A stretch of DNA of 64,000 nucleotides from Bacillota bacterium (GTDB lineage: Bacteria; Bacillota; Sulfobacillia; JABLXB01). The notes under the pieces were generated by a model. The model had not been told where the DNA came from and ran no database searches. It saw nothing but the letters and a program-made list of their open reading frames with translations. Numbering within the stretch: position 1 is the stretch's first letter; every line of letters starts with the position of its first letter. The position numbers and the translations under genes are program-made. Positions 49,898-61,669 of this stretch are shown here, one piece after another. The DNA lies in contig JABLXB010000004.1 in NCBI GenBank assembly GCA_013178305.1, positions 124,001-188,000 on the forward strand. The letters run 5' to 3'.

Positions 49898-50178
49898 CAA
49901 ACCTCTAATACGACTGGCTATGACCAGGAGGGTAAGCCATCCGGCAGACACAGAGAATGCCCGGTAGGTGCGAGGGCTTCTGCGGGGCGGCCGACGTTCA
50001 CCTGTTAGCCGCGGCCTGAAACGCCAACATGGAGTAGGCGCCGACGGGGGTCCGCCGTTAAAAGGACAGGGTATCGGTGCGCAGCAGGCCAACGCACCCG
50101 TATCCGAATTGAGAGGGTGTACGCCAACAAGGGTGGTACCGCGGGTTTGAATCCCGTCCCTTAGGGGACGGGATTTTT
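49898..50178 (+). promoter_or_regulatory. T-box leader of operon 1, Phe specifier
   Basis: T-box AACAAGGGTGGTACCGCGGG at 50127-50146 and terminator ATCCCGTCCC...GGGGACGGGAT with T5 at 50151-50177. In Stem I the eight-base specifier loop GACGTTCA lies between the upper GGCC helix and the lower CCTG helix. Aligned with the metG loop (GAACATGG), the codon at positions 5-7 is TTC (49997-49999), i.e. Phe, fitting the first gene pheA. Confidence 0.9.
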
Positions 50179-51031
50179 GTCTTTCAGATCAGACAATGGG
50201 GGGAATCCAAATGGGGTTTGCAGATCTGTAGCGTACCAGGGCGAACCGGGGGCTTTTAGCGAGGTCGCCGCGGGAAGACTGGAGCCCGAGGCGCGACCGG
50301 TACCGTGCAGGACACTTCATGAGCTCTTCACCATGGTACAATCGAGTGCCGTGGAAGCGGGGGTCGTGCCCGTGGAGAACTCGCTCGCTGGAAGCATCGC
50401 GGAAACCTATGACTTGCTGATCTCCCACGACCTTTTCGTGACCGGAGAAACCACATTGCCGGTTGAGCACTGCCTCCTGGCGCTTCCCGGTACCGAACTC
50501 ACCCAGATCCAGGAGGTGCTCTCCCATCCACAGGCTCTGGCTCAGTGCAACGATTACCTCGTGCAGCTCGGTGTCGAATGCGTTCCCTATTACGACACCG
50601 CCGGAGCCGCGAAACATGTGAAGCGTTCGGGCCTCCTTCACGCGGCAGCCATAGCCTCACAATGGGCCGCGGAGGTATACGGCCTGCAAGTGCTGGTACG
50701 GGGGATCCAATCCAACCGCGACAACTATACCAGGTTCTACCGGATAGAACGAATGGAGCGACCGGGAGGAAGGCGCAACAGGACTGTGTTCGCCGTCGGC
50801 CTCCCGCATTGCCCCGGCTCACTCGTTACTGCGCTTTCGTCGTTCTCCAATCAAGGTGTCAACCTGACAAAGATCGAGTCCAGGCCCGTAAGAGCCAAGC
50901 CGTGGCAGTACATCTTCTACCTTGAGTACGAGGGCCACGTTGAAGACCCCGGCATGCAATCAGCCCTTGAAGACCTGAGAGCCAGGGTGGCCATGTTACG
51001 AATTCTCGGATCCTTTCCCGTGGAGGAATGA
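50177..51031 (+). CDS. pheA: Prephenate dehydratase with ACT domain
   Basis: About 280 residues. The catalytic domain begins VAYQGEPGAFSE and includes VVPVENSLAGS, SHPQALAQC and NYTRFYRI. The ACT regulatory domain has IESRPVRAKPWQYIF and probably binds Phe. The only in-frame start is TTG 50177, lying in the T-tract of the T-box terminator. A much better ATG at 50211, with GGGGGG upstream, is one frame off and hits a stop after six codons. A missing base between 50211 and 50228 is likely. Confidence 0.9.
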   Translation: MSFRSDNGGNPNGVCRSVAYQGEPGAFSEVAAGRLEPEARPVPCRTLHELFTMVQSSAVEAGVVPVENSLAGSIAETYDLLISHDLFVTGETTLPVEHCLLALPGTELTQIQEVLSHPQALAQCNDYLVQLGVECVPYYDTAGAAKHVKRSGLLHAAAIASQWAAEVYGLQVLVRGIQSNRDNYTRFYRIERMERPGGRRNRTVFAVGLPHCPGSLVTALSSFSNQGVNLTKIESRPVRAKPWQYIFYLEYEGHVEDPGMQSALEDLRARVAMLRILGSFPVEE

Positions 51032-51033
51032 TT

Positions 51034-51402
51034 ATGGCAATGCGAGGAGTCCGCGGCGCGATCAGCGTCCAGGCGAACGAAAACCACATGATCCTTGAGT
51101 CGACCGGTCAAATGATTTCGGCGGCGCTGGAACTCAACCACATCCAGCCCGAGGACATCGCGGCCATTATGTTCGCCGTCACACCCGACCTTGACAAGGC
51201 GTTTCCCGCAGCAGCCGCCAGAGGTATGGGACTCACCGGCGTCCCGTTGCTGGATTTCGTCTCACCCGACGTTGAGGCCGGAATGCGGAGGGTCATCCGG
51301 ATGCTGCTGCTCTGGAACACGGACAAGAACCAGGACGAGGTACGGCACGTGTACCTCGGGGAGGCGCAGAGACTGCGCTCGGACCTGGCATCACCCGGAT
51401 AA
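51034..51402 (+). CDS. aroH: AroH-type chorismate mutase
   Basis: 122 residues of the monofunctional AroH family. Arg7 (RGVRGA), Arg89 (VIRM) and Tyr107 (RHVYL) match B. subtilis AroH Arg7, Arg90 and Tyr108. The position of catalytic Glu78 is Ser77 here (DFVSPDV). ATG 51034 lies six bases after GGAGGA, which overlaps the end of pheA. It would convert chorismate to prephenate for pheA and tyrA. Confidence 0.9.
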   Translation: MAMRGVRGAISVQANENHMILESTGQMISAALELNHIQPEDIAAIMFAVTPDLDKAFPAAAARGMGLTGVPLLDFVSPDVEAGMRRVIRMLLLWNTDKNQDEVRHVYLGEAQRLRSDLASPG

Positions 51403-51463
51403 TCCGGATTCGTACAGCGTGTAGGCGCGGCGTTGTTGAGCATGCACCATCCAGCTCATCAAA

Positions 51464-52599
51464 CGAGGCGCAAGGGAGGCGTTAGAGCCTTGACAATTGT
51501 GATGAAAAGCGTGGCTACCCCCGAGGAAGTGGAGAAGGTCAGGCAACACCTGAAGGAGGCCGGGCTAGACGTGTACACATCCCAGGGAGAGGAACGCACG
51601 ATTCTGGGGACCACGGGGGACGTCTGCGGGATTGCTCCGGAGTCGATCGAGGCGCTGCCCGGCGTCGAGCGAGCCATAAGGATACTGGAACCATACAAAC
51701 TGGCGAGCCGAAAACTGAAACCCACCTCCACCACGGTTGATTTGGGCAGCGTGAGGATCGGCGGCCGGGAGGTCGTCCTGATAGCCGGACCCTGCTCCGT
51801 CGAGGGAATGGAGATGCTGAGAGCAACCGCCAGGGCGGCTCTGGGGGCCGGCGCCTCGATCCTGAGAGGAGGAGCATTCAAGCCCAGGAGCTCCCCTTAC
51901 AGCTTTCAGGGTCTCGGGCGCGAGGGCCTTCAGATGCTCGCCACGGTCAAGGGCGAGACCGGCCTGCCGGTCGTGACCGAGGTCATGTCCCCCGAACAGG
52001 TGGAGATGGTTGCCGGCTACGCCGACATGCTGCAGATCGGCGCGCGTAACATGCAGAACTTCAACCTGCTCCAAGAAGTCGGACAGAGCAAGAAGCCTGT
52101 AATGCTCAAGAGGGGCATGATGTCTTCCATAGACGAGTGGCTGCAGGCGGCCGAGTACATCCTCGCCCGTGGCAATATGCAAGTTGTGCTGTGCGAGAGA
52201 GGCATCAGAACCTTCGAAACCCATACTCGCAACACGCTCGACATCAGCGCGGTGCCCGCAGTCAAGCGACTAAGCCATCTGCCCGTGATCGTCGACCCGA
52301 GCCACGGCACGGGTAAGCGCGAACTGGTGATACCCATGGCAATGGCCGCGATAGCGGCCGGGGCCGATGGAGTCATGGTCGAGGCGCATCCGGAACCCGA
52401 CAAGGCTCTTTCGGACGGCGCACAATCACTCAACCTGGGCGAGTTGAATGAACTCGCCCAGCAAGTCAGCAGCGTTGCCGCCGCGCTGAACCGGTCCCTG
52501 CACCGCCCAATCCCGGCCGGACCCCAAGTCCGGCCACAGGGAGCCGCGGCGCCATGAGCCAGCGTTCGAACACAGCCTCGCAGGTTACGGATACGGCCA
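51464..52599 (+). repeat. Near-identical block A, copy 1
   Basis: Matches 58326-59460 with, by eye, one substitution (near 51567) and one deleted base in copy 2. Covers aroF and the first 15 codons of tyrA. Identity ends abruptly on both sides. Confidence 0.9.
51490..52557 (+). CDS. aroF: DAHP synthase type I-beta, copy 1
   Basis: 355 residues. An N-terminal ferredoxin-like regulatory domain (about 1-70, LTIVMKSVATPEEVEKVRQH) precedes the catalytic barrel (GPCSVEG, GGAFKPRSSPYSFQG, KRGM, DPSHGTGKRELV). It condenses PEP and erythrose 4-phosphate. TTG 51490 with AAGGGAGG ten bases upstream; family members begin at this point. The stop overlaps the tyrA scar ATG by four bases. Confidence 0.93.
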   Translation: MTIVMKSVATPEEVEKVRQHLKEAGLDVYTSQGEERTILGTTGDVCGIAPESIEALPGVERAIRILEPYKLASRKLKPTSTTVDLGSVRIGGREVVLIAGPCSVEGMEMLRATARAALGAGASILRGGAFKPRSSPYSFQGLGREGLQMLATVKGETGLPVVTEVMSPEQVEMVAGYADMLQIGARNMQNFNLLQEVGQSKKPVMLKRGMMSSIDEWLQAAEYILARGNMQVVLCERGIRTFETHTRNTLDISAVPAVKRLSHLPVIVDPSHGTGKRELVIPMAMAAIAAGADGVMVEAHPEPDKALSDGAQSLNLGELNELAQQVSSVAAALNRSLHRPIPAGPQVRPQGAAAP

Positions 52600-52658
52600 G
52601 GAGAGCAAGAGAATATCTCGAGGACGCGGCGGCACTGGGGGGTATTCAAGTTGTCTAA
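52554..52658 (+). pseudogene. tyrA deletion scar, copy 1
   Basis: An in-frame 34-codon remnant: the first 15 codons match copy-2 TyrA (MSQRSNTASQVTDTA), and the rest (RRAREYLEDAAALGGI) matches its C-terminus (RRAREYLQEAPAPGGI). About 270 internal codons are gone. The C-terminal half has diverged from copy 2 while the N-terminal part is identical to it. Confidence 0.9.
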
Positions 52659-53993
52659 CACAAGTCGCCAGGCGGGTATCACTGCCTGCATCAGAGTTCC
52701 GGGCGACAAATCCATTTCGCATCGCTCAGCAATGCTGGGCGCCCTGGCTGAGGGAGAAACGATCATCACTAACTACGCGCCCGGCAGGGATTGCGCCGCG
52801 ACCCTGGATTGCCTGGGCGCTCTGGGCGTCCCTATCGAACGAGGGCCGGACTGCGTCAGGGTCACCGGTCTCGGCCTCAAGGGGTTGCGAGAGCCCCTGG
52901 ATGTGCTCGACTGCAAGAACTCCGGCACAACCATGAGGCTCATGGCGGGCATTCTGGCAGGCCAGGAATTCATGAGCGTATTGACAGGCGATGATTCCCT
53001 GAGAAGCCGGCCCATGAAGCGCGTCGTAGAACCCCTGCAACAGATGGGAGCCACCATTGATGGGCGCGACGGTGGTCTCAAAGCGCCCCTGTATGTAAGG
53101 GGCGGGTCGCCCGATGCCGGCGGTGGGTTACGGCCGTTGGACGAGTACAGGATGCCGGTGGCAAGCGCCCAGGTGAAGTCGTGCCTGATGCTGGCGGGTC
53201 TGTACGCTCGAGGTTCAACAACCATCGTGGAGACCGTGGCGTCGCGCGATCATACCGAGCGGATGATGGCCCTCTTTGGGGCGGACGTAAGCGTTCGAGG
53301 CGGCCGCGTCAGCGTACGGGGCTTCCCCAGACTGCGGGCTCAGAACCTCGAAGTGCCTGGTGACATATCGTCCGCAGCCTTCTGGCTCGCCGCCGGGGCG
53401 ATTGTCCAGGAATCGGATATACTGGTCCGCGGCGTCGGCCTGAATCCCCTGCGTTCCGGCTTCCTGCACGCCCTGCAGGCGATGGGATCCCGGATTGAGA
53501 TAACCACCGTCCGCAACGATTGGGAACCAGTAGGCGACGTGAGAGTCACGGGGGGCGACCTCCGGGCAATCGAGGTTACTCCACAACAGGTGCCGGCGCT
53601 CGTGGACGAGCTGCCCATGCTCGCGGTATGCGCGGCAAACGCGCGTGGGAGACCGTGGTCAGGGGCGCCGCGGAGCTACGGCACAAGGAGACCGACAGGA
53701 TCTCGGCCATCGTCGAGAACCTGCGGGCAATGGGCGCGACAGCCGGTGAGCTGGCTGACGGGTTCTGGGTGCAGGGTGGGGCACGCCTGCGGGGCGCTCG
53801 GATTCGCACCCGGGGCGACCATCGCATAGCCATGGCTTTCGCGATCGCGGGGCTGGTTGCGGATGGAGAGACCGTGCTCGACGACCCGGATTGCATTGAT
53901 GTGTCCTACCCCGGATTCCTCGCTCAGCTGGGGGATCTGGTGGGAAAGGTGCGCGGGACTTGGAGGTGCACAGGCAATGAGCAGTCACGGTAA
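52651..53993 (+). pseudogene. aroA: EPSP synthase copy 1, frameshifted
   Basis: EPSP synthase in two frames. The first frame from TTG 52651 (GGGGGG eight bases upstream) covers VPGDKSISHRSAMLG through LPMLAVCAANARG. The continuation ETVVRGAAELRHKETDRI to the C-terminus is in another frame and ends at 53993. One G is missing in GTGGGAGACC at 53647-53649. With the extra base the protein would be about 447 residues with all motifs. The same lesion is in copy 2. Confidence 0.88.
52732..53932 (+). repeat. Near-identical block B, copy 1
   Basis: Same length (1201 bases) as 60408-61608, with two substitutions seen by eye (near 53778 and 53867). Covers most of aroA including the frameshift. Confidence 0.9.
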
Positions 53994-57977: not shown

Positions 57978-58273
57978 CAAACCTGAAGTGCGAATGGCGA
58001 TGACCAGGAGAGGAAGTCATCTGGCAGACCCAGAGAATGCCCGGGTGGTGCGAGGGCTTCTGCGGGTGGCGAACGTACACCTGTGAGCTGCGGCCCGAAA
58101 CAGGCGGTCGTAGAGACCGTCATGGAGTAGGCGTCGACGGGTTCCGCCGTTAAAAGGACAGGATATCGGCCCGCCATTGCGTGCGAGCCCGTATCTGGGT
58201 GAGAGGGTGTACACCAACAAGGGTGGTACCGCGGGCTCGAATCCCGTCCCTTACAAGGGGCGGGATTTTTTGT
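57978..58273 (+). promoter_or_regulatory. T-box leader of operon 2, Tyr specifier
   Basis: Homologous to the operon-1 leader. T-box AACAAGGGTGGTACCGCGGG near 58217-58236, terminator CCCGTCCC...GGGGCGGG with T6. The specifier loop is AACGTACA before CCTG; position 5-7 is TAC (58076-58078), i.e. Tyr. The flanking bases CG and A are as in operon 1 (GACGTTCA). Confidence 0.9.
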
Positions 58274-58281
58274 CCCCATTC

Positions 58282-58355
58282 GGTCCTTTCGCCCTGGAGG
58301 GATGATTATGGCAGTACGGGGAGTTCGAGGCGCAAGGGAGGCGTTAGAGCCTTGA
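58282..58355 (+). pseudogene. pheA/aroH deletion scar, copy 2
   Basis: 58282-58305 aligns base for base in length with the last 24 bases of copy-1 pheA, including the stop and the aroH ribosome-binding site. ATG 58308 then gives MAVRGVRGA, matching AroH MAMRGVRGA, and runs straight into sequence from just upstream of aroF before a stop at 58355. Almost all of pheA and aroH is missing. Confidence 0.88.
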
Positions 58356-59460
58356 CAATTGTGATGAAAAGCGTGGCTACCCCCGAGGAAGTGGAGAAGG
58401 TCAGGCAACACCTGAAGGAGGCCGGGCTGGACGTGTACACATCCCAGGGAGAGGAACGCACGATTCTGGGGACCACGGGGGACGTCTGCGGGATTGCTCC
58501 GGAGTCGATCGAGGCGCTGCCCGGCGTCGAGCGAGCCATAAGGATACTGGAACCAACAAACTGGCGAGCCGAAAACTGAAACCCACCTCCACCACGGTTG
58601 ATTTGGGCAGCGTGAGGATCGGCGGCCGGGAGGTCGTCCTGATAGCCGGACCCTGCTCCGTCGAGGGAATGGAGATGCTGAGAGCAACCGCCAGGGCGGC
58701 TCTGGGGGCCGGCGCCTCGATCCTGAGAGGAGGAGCATTCAAGCCCAGGAGCTCCCCTTACAGCTTTCAGGGTCTCGGGCGCGAGGGCCTTCAGATGCTC
58801 GCCACGGTCAAGGGCGAGACCGGCCTGCCGGTCGTGACCGAGGTCATGTCCCCCGAACAGGTGGAGATGGTTGCCGGCTACGCCGACATGCTGCAGATCG
58901 GCGCGCGTAACATGCAGAACTTCAACCTGCTCCAAGAAGTCGGACAGAGCAAGAAGCCTGTAATGCTCAAGAGGGGCATGATGTCTTCCATAGACGAGTG
59001 GCTGCAGGCGGCCGAGTACATCCTCGCCCGTGGCAATATGCAAGTTGTGCTGTGCGAGAGAGGCATCAGAACCTTCGAAACCCATACTCGCAACACGCTC
59101 GACATCAGCGCGGTGCCCGCAGTCAAGCGACTAAGCCATCTGCCCGTGATCGTCGACCCGAGCCACGGCACGGGTAAGCGCGAACTGGTGATACCCATGG
59201 CAATGGCCGCGATAGCGGCCGGGGCCGATGGAGTCATGGTCGAGGCGCATCCGGAACCCGACAAGGCTCTTTCGGACGGCGCACAATCACTCAACCTGGG
59301 CGAGTTGAATGAACTCGCCCAGCAAGTCAGCAGCGTTGCCGCCGCGCTGAACCGGTCCCTGCACCGCCCAATCCCGGCCGGACCCCAAGTCCGGCCACAG
59401 GGAGCCGCGGCGCCATGAGCCAGCGTTCGAACACAGCCTCGCAGGTTACGGATACGGCCA
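58326..59460 (+). repeat. Near-identical block A, copy 2
   Basis: Counterpart of 51464-52599, one base shorter. Confidence 0.9.
58352..59418 (+). pseudogene. aroF: DAHP synthase copy 2, frameshifted
   Basis: Same protein as copy 1, but one base is missing where copy 1 has CCATACAAAC and copy 2 CCAACAAAC (between 58554 and 58555). This separates the N-terminal regulatory domain (58352-58579) from the barrel, which is intact from about TTG 58603 (271 residues). Either a pseudogene, an assembly error, or an unregulated catalytic domain made by internal initiation. Confidence 0.88.
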
Positions 59461-60326
59461 TGCAGACGATGGTGGTCGGGATTGTGGGCTTAGGGCTGAT
59501 CGGCGGCTCTATCGGTCTGGCGCTTCGCTCCAATCGCCCGTGGCGCGTGATCGGCTACGACCTCATCGAGGGAGTCGCCGCACGAGCGGTTCTTGTGGGC
59601 GCCTGCCACGAGGAAGCCGGCTCCCTGCGGAACCTCGCCCGCAGGAGTGATGTAGTGGTGGTCGCCGTTCCCAGCAGCGCCATACCGGAAGTAGCGTTGC
59701 TCGCGGCGGAATCCATGAAGCCGGGCAGCGTGGTGACGGACGTGGGCAGTGTAAAGCTCCCCGTTCAGGAGCGAATAATCGCCAACCTGCCGCCCGGCGT
59801 GCAATACGTGGGCGGTCACCCGATGGCCGGGTCGGAGAGATCTGGACTCGAAGCCGCGTCGGCGGACCTGTTCAGGGGCGCAGTCTGGGCCATTACGGAC
59901 TCCGGCACAAACCTCGCGGGTGTTGAAAGGGTCGGGGCCATCGTTGAGGCCACCGGGGCGAGGCCGCTTGTGGTGGACGCGCTGGAACACGACAAAACAG
60001 TATCTTTCACCAGCCACCTGCCTTACCTGGTGGCTCTCGCCACAGCCCTCTGCTCGCGCCAGGGAGCCACGGATCTGCCACTGATCAACGTACTTACAGC
60101 GCGAGGCTTCAGGGATACCACCCGGCTCGCGCGCTCGGATCCGTCGATGGCCGTCGACTATTGCGTCCTCAACAACCAATCTCTGCTGGCTGCAATTAGC
60201 AGTTTCGAAGAGCATCTCGCTACCATCAAGACAGCACTTCGGGCAGGAAATCGTGTTGCCCTGGTAGACGCGGCAAGACGAGCCCGGGAGTACCTTCAAG
60301 AAGCGCCGGCCCCGGGGGGTATTTGA
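59415..60326 (+). CDS. tyrA: Prephenate dehydrogenase
   Basis: 303 residues. NAD-binding GIVGLGLIGGSIGLAL, DVGSVK, catalytic HPMAGSE, and EHDKTVSFTSHLPYLVA. It oxidises prephenate to 4-hydroxyphenylpyruvate. No ACT domain is seen. ATG 59415 overlaps the aroF stop by four bases; ATG 59460 would also give a full Rossmann domain. Only this copy is intact. Confidence 0.95.
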   Translation: MSQRSNTASQVTDTAMQTMVVGIVGLGLIGGSIGLALRSNRPWRVIGYDLIEGVAARAVLVGACHEEAGSLRNLARRSDVVVVAVPSSAIPEVALLAAESMKPGSVVTDVGSVKLPVQERIIANLPPGVQYVGGHPMAGSERSGLEAASADLFRGAVWAITDSGTNLAGVERVGAIVEATGARPLVVDALEHDKTVSFTSHLPYLVALATALCSRQGATDLPLINVLTARGFRDTTRLARSDPSMAVDYCVLNNQSLLAAISSFEEHLATIKTALRAGNRVALVDAARRAREYLQEAPAPGGI

Positions 60327-61669
60327 GTGGTCGCCATAACCAGGCAGTCGAAAATGAACGCGCGCCTAAAGGTCCCCGGCGACAAGTCCATCTCTCACCG
60401 CTCAGCGATGCTGGGCGCCCTGGCTGAGGGAGAAACGATCATCACTAACTACGCGCCCGGCAGGGATTGCGCCGCGACCCTGGATTGCCTGGGCGCTCTG
60501 GGCGTCCCTATCGAACGAGGGCCGGACTGCGTCAGGGTCACCGGTCTCGGCCTCAAGGGGTTGCGAGAGCCCCTGGATGTGCTCGACTGCAAGAACTCCG
60601 GCACAACCATGAGGCTCATGGCGGGCATTCTGGCAGGCCAGGAATTCATGAGCGTATTGACAGGCGATGATTCCCTGAGAAGCCGGCCCATGAAGCGCGT
60701 CGTAGAACCCCTGCAACAGATGGGAGCCACCATTGATGGGCGCGACGGTGGTCTCAAAGCGCCCCTGTATGTAAGGGGCGGGTCGCCCGATGCCGGCGGT
60801 GGGTTACGGCCGTTGGACGAGTACAGGATGCCGGTGGCAAGCGCCCAGGTGAAGTCGTGCCTGATGCTGGCGGGTCTGTACGCTCGAGGTTCAACAACCA
60901 TCGTGGAGACCGTGGCGTCGCGCGATCATACCGAGCGGATGATGGCCCTCTTTGGGGCGGACGTAAGCGTTCGAGGCGGCCGCGTCAGCGTACGGGGCTT
61001 CCCCAGACTGCGGGCTCAGAACCTCGAAGTGCCTGGTGACATATCGTCCGCAGCCTTCTGGCTCGCCGCCGGGGCGATTGTCCAGGAATCGGATATACTG
61101 GTCCGCGGCGTCGGCCTGAATCCCCTGCGTTCCGGCTTCCTGCACGCCCTGCAGGCGATGGGATCCCGGATTGAGATAACCACCGTCCGCAACGATTGGG
61201 AACCAGTAGGCGACGTGAGAGTCACGGGGGGCGACCTCCGGGCAATCGAGGTTACTCCACAACAGGTGCCGGCGCTCGTGGACGAGCTGCCCATGCTCGC
61301 GGTATGCGCGGCAAACGCGCGTGGGAGACCGTGGTCAGGGGCGCCGCGGAGCTACGGCACAAGGAGACCGACAGGATCTCGGCCATCGTCGAGAACCTGC
61401 GGGCAATGGGCGCGACAGCCGGTGAGCTGGCTGACGGGTTCTGGGTGCAGGGCGGGGCACGCCTGCGGGGCGCTCGGATTCGCACCCGGGGCGACCATCG
61501 CATAGCCATGGCTTTCGCGATCGCGGGGCTGGTTGCGGATGGAAAGACCGTGCTCGACGACCCGGATTGCATTGATGTGTCCTACCCCGGATTCCTCGCT
61601 CAGCTGGGTCAGCTCGTGGAGAAAGGCCGCAGGCTGGAGGAGGTCGTCAGCGATGAACACGCCTGGTAA
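60327..61669 (+). pseudogene. aroA: EPSP synthase copy 2, frameshifted
   Basis: GTG 60327 after GGGGGG. Same protein and same missing G (GGG at 61323-61325) as copy 1. The N-terminal 25 residues (VAITRQSKMNARLKVPGDKS) and the C-terminus after 61608 differ from copy 1, as does the extreme C-terminus (VEKGRRLEEVVSDEHAW). Confidence 0.88.
60408..61608 (+). repeat. Near-identical block B, copy 2
   Basis: Counterpart of 52732-53932, constant offset 7676. Confidence 0.9.

Follow-up and report, generated by a model that had tools for sequence, protein, structure and literature searches.

The aroH gene of the window (the whole stretch of DNA that was analyzed, 64,000 nt from a Bacillota bacterium) very likely encodes a working AroH-type chorismate mutase, in which the catalytic carboxylate has shifted from position 78 to position 75 in the numbering of the Bacillus subtilis enzyme (BsCM); the residue at position 75 is Asp74 in this protein. 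On balance, AroH proteins of several groups (the lineage of the window, further families within the class and the phylum to which it belongs, and the cyanobacteria) have probably moved this carboxylate repeatedly, from residue 78 of one subunit to residue 75 of its neighbor, via doubly acidic intermediates. As far as the sequence can tell, the mutase of the window is most likely not broken. The gene, its two key codons and its neighbors are located as follows.

50177–51031, + strand: pheA, prephenate dehydratase, which uses prephenate (PF00800, E 9.5e-60; prephenate dehydratase models)
51028–51402, + strand: aroH, monofunctional AroH-type chorismate mutase of 124 aa, or 122 aa from the ATG at 51034 (PF07736, TIGR01796, model compared with 3zo8)
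51253–51255, + strand: codon GAT of Asp74, BsCM position 75 (Cys in B. subtilis), the proposed relocated catalytic carboxylate (alignment, survey, tree tests)
51262–51264, + strand: codon TCA of Ser77, BsCM position 78, where B. subtilis and Thermus have Glu (alignment)
51433–52557, + strand: DAHP synthase with a ferredoxin-like domain and without a chorismate mutase domain (PF00793, PF18152; no PF01817 in the genome)

The gene order on the + strand is pheA, aroH and the DAHP synthase gene, and the 3' end of pheA overlaps the start of aroH by 4 bases. Residues such as Ser77 and Asp74 were counted from the second in-frame ATG of aroH, at 51034. The protein covered the whole Pfam profile CM_1 (PF07736) with an E value of 1.5e-38 and 132.2 bits (cut-off 27), and it scored 113.7 bits (cut-off 82) against the NCBIfam equivalog model TIGR01796 (CM_mono_aroH). 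CM_1 was the sole chorismate mutase profile matched in the Pfam search, CM_2 (PF01817) being unmatched. The AlphaFold2 monomer model (mean pLDDT 92.4) was superposed on BsCM (3zo8_A) with a Z score of 22.3 and 0.8 Å over 116 residues (model residues 1–116, chain residues 1–117); it was also superposed on the Thermus chorismate mutase, and the next other fold reached only Z 8.0. Judged by homology and by the modeled fold, the protein is an AroH that varies in the catalytic acid.

The alignment with B. subtilis AroH had no gap across the active site. The original prediction had placed Ser77 at the Glu78 position, and this was confirmed by the gap-free alignment together with the close superposition of the model on 3zo8, which also ruled out a misalignment at the site; the aligned AroH set likewise put Ser, and no Glu, at position 78. 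The equivalents of Arg7, Arg90 and Tyr108, which had been listed as retained, were all found, as were those of Arg63 and Arg116. B. subtilis AroH (1COM, 2CHT, 3ZO8) shares these five residues, the fold and about 39% identity with the protein of the window, but carries Cys75-Glu78 where the latter carries Asp-Ser; Thermus thermophilus AroH (1ODE, 1UFY), with the same fold and 50% identity, carries Ser75-Glu78. A single-base error in one assembly was also ruled out as the origin of Ser77, because relatives carry the same D75/S78 letters: both were kept in 8 of 8 distinct rows of the survey described below, including a Bacillota MAG AroH that is 69% identical to the one studied here (L031) and a Symbiobacterium MAG AroH (L032, the same as L013).

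To place these residues in the family, AroH proteins were gathered by Pfam family and positions 75 and 78 were read in BsCM numbering. The class of the window was represented by all 119 matches, from 118 of 151 genomes (initial set 61 genomes). In the draw of 249 genomes from its phylum, 189 had a match and 59 loci were taken; the actinobacterial phylum contributed 50 loci from 101 matching genomes of 198, the Chloroflexota-like phylum 50 loci from 60 of 121, and the Cyanobacteria 30 loci from 48 of 59; 12 further AroH loci came from named records. The loci from the phyla were picked at the two ends of the score lists, so that the sample is non-random; the phylum names follow the record titles of loci that served as centers. 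The 320 loci gave 321 proteins (one locus had two matches), from which 9 identical rows were removed; the locus of the window was replaced by the protein analyzed here and the B. subtilis and Thermus AroH sequences were added, giving a final set of 314 rows.

Among these rows, the pair at positions 75 and 78 was Cys-Glu in 205, Gly-Glu in 28, Asp-Gln in 25, Asp-Glu in 21, Asp-Ser in 8, Asp-Ala in 8 and Ser-Glu in 6, the rarer pairs being Glu-Gln and Cys-Asp (3 each), Met-Glu (2), and Asn-Glu, Asp-His, Cys-Gln, Ile-Glu and Val-Glu (1 each). Glu78 is not family-defining for AroH, since 49 of the 314 rows had another residue at this position, 3 of them Asp. These three (L284, L285 and L289) are Chloroflexota-like AroH proteins with the Cys-Asp pair and an insertion after the site. 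An acid at position 78 was absent from 46 rows, 45 of which had Asp or Glu at position 75; conversely, 247 of the 248 rows with no acid at 75 had one at 78. An acid was thus present at one position or the other in 313 of 314 rows, and at both in 21 (D75/E78). In the rows of the class (n = 115) the acid-at-75-or-78 rule had no exception; the protein of the window lacks Glu78 itself, yet it follows the rule through Asp75. Arg7, Arg63, Arg90, Tyr108, Leu115 and Arg116 were each kept in 46 of the 46 rows without an acid at 78. As for the cyanobacterial Asp75-Gln78 proteins (14 distinct rows), they resemble the one studied here in having an acid at 75 and none at 78 and in coming from genomes without AroQ, but they belong to a different phylum and have Gln rather than Ser at 78.

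The sole row with neither acid was L267 (G451:C172), from the actinobacterial-phylum genome G451, with Cys75 and Gln78. Its other active-site residues were kept, its genome had no AroQ, and its codon 78 is CAG, one base from GAG. A base error could account for this row; otherwise the enzyme may be weak, or an acid may not be essential.

The link between the two positions was analyzed on AroH trees computed after the removal of columns 75 and 78, 13 in number (1 IQ-TREE, 1 FastTree and 11 bootstrap FastTree trees); they were based on about 116 columns and were poorly supported. On the IQ-TREE tree, the minimum number of changes was 11 for the presence of the acid at 78 and 20 for that at 75. 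In a Pagel-type test, each of the 13 trees favored a dependent over an independent model (LR 43.8–88.3, 4 d.f.), and the link between 75 and 78 thus persisted when ancestry was accounted for. When position 78 was compared with all testable columns as a control (145 codings), the acid at 75 ranked first with an LR of 43.4, the best other column reaching 21.9 and the median being 4.4. An independent-pairs count restricted to well-supported branches gave 3 pairs, too few for a sign test, and a plain MI-APC scan ranked 75-78 16th of 7140 pairs, with 75-79 higher (5th). In 11 of the 13 trees, though not in the other 2, the acid at 78 was lost at a higher rate where an acid was present at 75; it may be inferred that the acid at 75 was gained first, before the acid at 78 was lost, an order that is not firm. 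The 21 D75/E78 rows are of the kind that would be expected as intermediates of such a relocation, and mixed families were seen as well, family f67 containing both D75/E78 and D75/A78 rows and family f44 both D75/S78 and D75/A78 rows.

A mechanism is suggested by what is known of BsCM. According to PMC10782440, the C4 hydroxyl of the substrate is hydrogen-bonded by Glu78, with the backbone amide of Cys75 at the same spot, and PMC5458464 describes a salt bridge between Glu78 and Arg90. In the trimer as described in PMC5526877, one chain provides Arg7, Glu78, Arg90 and Tyr108 of an active site, and its neighbor Cys75, Thr74, Arg63, Lys60 and Phe57. We infer that both contacts of Glu78, those with the C4 hydroxyl and with Arg90, would be made by the side chain of Asp75 instead, and that the enzyme of the window would be active, the roles of Arg90, Arg7, Arg63, Tyr108 and Arg116 staying as in BsCM. 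The carboxylate would then reach the hydroxyl from the neighboring chain; the charge would have been moved across the subunit interface, because residue 75 lies on the chain next to that of residue 78 in the published description of the trimer. The likely route leads from C75-E78 or G75-E78 through D75-E78, with both acids, to forms in which Q, A, S or H has replaced E78.

It is rather unlikely, though worth weighing, that Asp75 holds Arg90 or the loop with no contact to the hydroxyl; backbone or water would then bind the C4 hydroxyl, and the electrostatics would be unlike those of BsCM. This would be a sub-case of a functional enzyme and overlaps with the preferred explanation. The salt bridge of Glu78 itself to Arg90 in BsCM (PMC5458464) is in its favor, as is E. 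coli AroQ, where, according to PMC12329711, Asp48 binds the hydroxyl by its backbone amide while its carboxylate forms a salt bridge with an active-site Arg. E. coli AroQ, however, still has a separate Glu for the hydroxyl, whereas no second conserved acid was found in the AroH rows. That residue of E. coli AroQ is Glu52.

A weakened enzyme, in which the loss of Glu78 cut the activity and was tolerated through low flux demand or a helper protein, is distinctly improbable, and the reduced activity suggested in the original prediction is not supported. Mutations of Glu78 in BsCM do lower the rate (PMC10782440), and L267 persists in one genome without either acid; but decay would predict neither the acid at 75 in 45 of the 46 rows nor the intact state of the other catalytic residues in all 46, and the covariation pattern speaks against it. 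In addition, the genomes without an acid at 78 had no other recognizable mutase. The genome assembly of the window, which is 97.7% complete, contained one CM_1 match, and the DNA search found a single copy of aroH; the CM_2 profile (PF01817, AroQ), which detected AroQ in 13 of 14 known genomes as a control, had no match over the whole assembly. The earlier statement that this was the only mutase visible thus holds genome-wide; the search for another chorismate mutase that had been proposed with it recovered none that is recognizable, and a backup mutase was rejected, the profile and DNA searches showing aroH alone. Prephenate is needed, since the genome has both users of it, prephenate dehydratase (pheA, 50177–51031) and prephenate dehydrogenase (tyrA, 59415–60326). 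An AroQ domain was likewise found in none of the 46 genomes whose AroH lacks the acid at 78 (0 of 23 and 0 of 23); it was found in 2 of the 6 Glu78-AroH genomes reached through named loci, and as only six such genomes were compared, the claim is limited to the lack of a recognizable backup and does not extend to a difference between the groups.

The proposal that Glu81 (BsCM position 82), or else Asp79, has taken over the role is very improbable: both lie in the same loop and an acid at BsCM 82 is partly associated with the loss of the acid at 78 (LR 15.4), but among the 46 rows without an acid at 78 an acid occurred at BsCM 82 in just 19 (15 Glu, 4 Asp) and at BsCM 80 in 7, and of the 8 D75/S78 rows only that of the window itself had one at 82. 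Glu81 was accordingly rejected as the substitute acid, being unconserved. The original prediction had suggested that another residue such as Glu81 may supply the charge; its general part is probably right, whereas the residue that tracks the loss of Glu78 is Asp74 (BsCM 75), which that prediction had not named.

A second copy of the operon occupies about 57.9–64.0 kb of the window and contains the following two features.

58302–58333, + strand: aroH start remnant of 11 codons, running at an 8-base match into the DNA that precedes the DAHP synthase gene
59415–60326, + strand: tyrA, prephenate dehydrogenase, which uses prephenate

Copy 2 lacks pheA and the remainder of aroH, so that aroH had rightly been described as lost from it, although the first 11 codons remain. 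The break point is the 8-base match (58326–58333 against 51464–51471), as a deletion between short repeats would leave. In copy 2, tyrA lies between the DAHP synthase gene and aroA, while copy 1 has pheA-aroH before the DAHP synthase gene; side by side, the copies are Phe-branch and Tyr-branch versions of the same operon. Identity between the copies is uneven, at 99.8% for the DAHP synthase regions (51464–52599 and 58270–59460), 100% for aroA at 52732–53776 and about 72–79% for aroE and much of aroC, which resembles patches of recent gene conversion. The aroA gene (EPSP synthase, 52651–53993) is split over two frames near 53650, one frame covering the profile to position 322 and the other positions 323–417; its counterpart in copy 2 (60327–61669) is split at the corresponding point, which may reflect a shared frameshift, an assembly error or recoding.

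Solved structures represent 12 distinct AroH sequences; in the 11 that were aligned, which were all but the design 4nwo_B, no acid stood at position 75, and all 11 had Glu78. Kast et al. (1996) reportedly randomized BsCM at positions 78 and 75 and found by selection that an acid was needed at 78, a need that a change at 75 could satisfy; those variants were engineered, whereas the one in the lineage of the window is natural. No report of Asp75, or of a Cys75-to-Asp change, in a natural AroH was found in the open-access literature (subscription journals may differ), and the same literature yielded neither kinetics nor a ligand-bound structure of a natural AroH with an acid at 75 and none at 78. 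According to PMC12329711, an acid at the C4 hydroxyl also proved important when an AroQ-type enzyme, which is unrelated to AroH, was subjected to directed evolution; E. coli AroQ is similar in that a backbone amide binds the C4 hydroxyl, which is served by an acid as well, but it is all-helical with an unrelated fold, and the AroQ domain is absent from the genome of the window. The protein described here is most likely a novel form of a familiar enzyme and not a broken one.

BsCM serves as a test case for theories of how enzymes catalyze reactions, with Glu78 and Arg90 at the center of the electrostatic account. The natural series C75-E78, D75-E78 and D75-Q/A/S78 provides ready-made enzymes in which this charge would act on the transition state from a different backbone position, probably one on another subunit; this makes it testable whether the place of the charge or its mere presence matters, and offers a clear example of the relocation of a catalytic residue. 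If this is true, the Glu78 rule of AroH would be wrong for about one in seven sequences of this non-random sample, annotation rules that score such proteins as inactive because they lack Glu78 would misclassify them, those of many cyanobacteria among them, and a key catalytic group would have undergone a natural trans-subunit relocation in a textbook enzyme.
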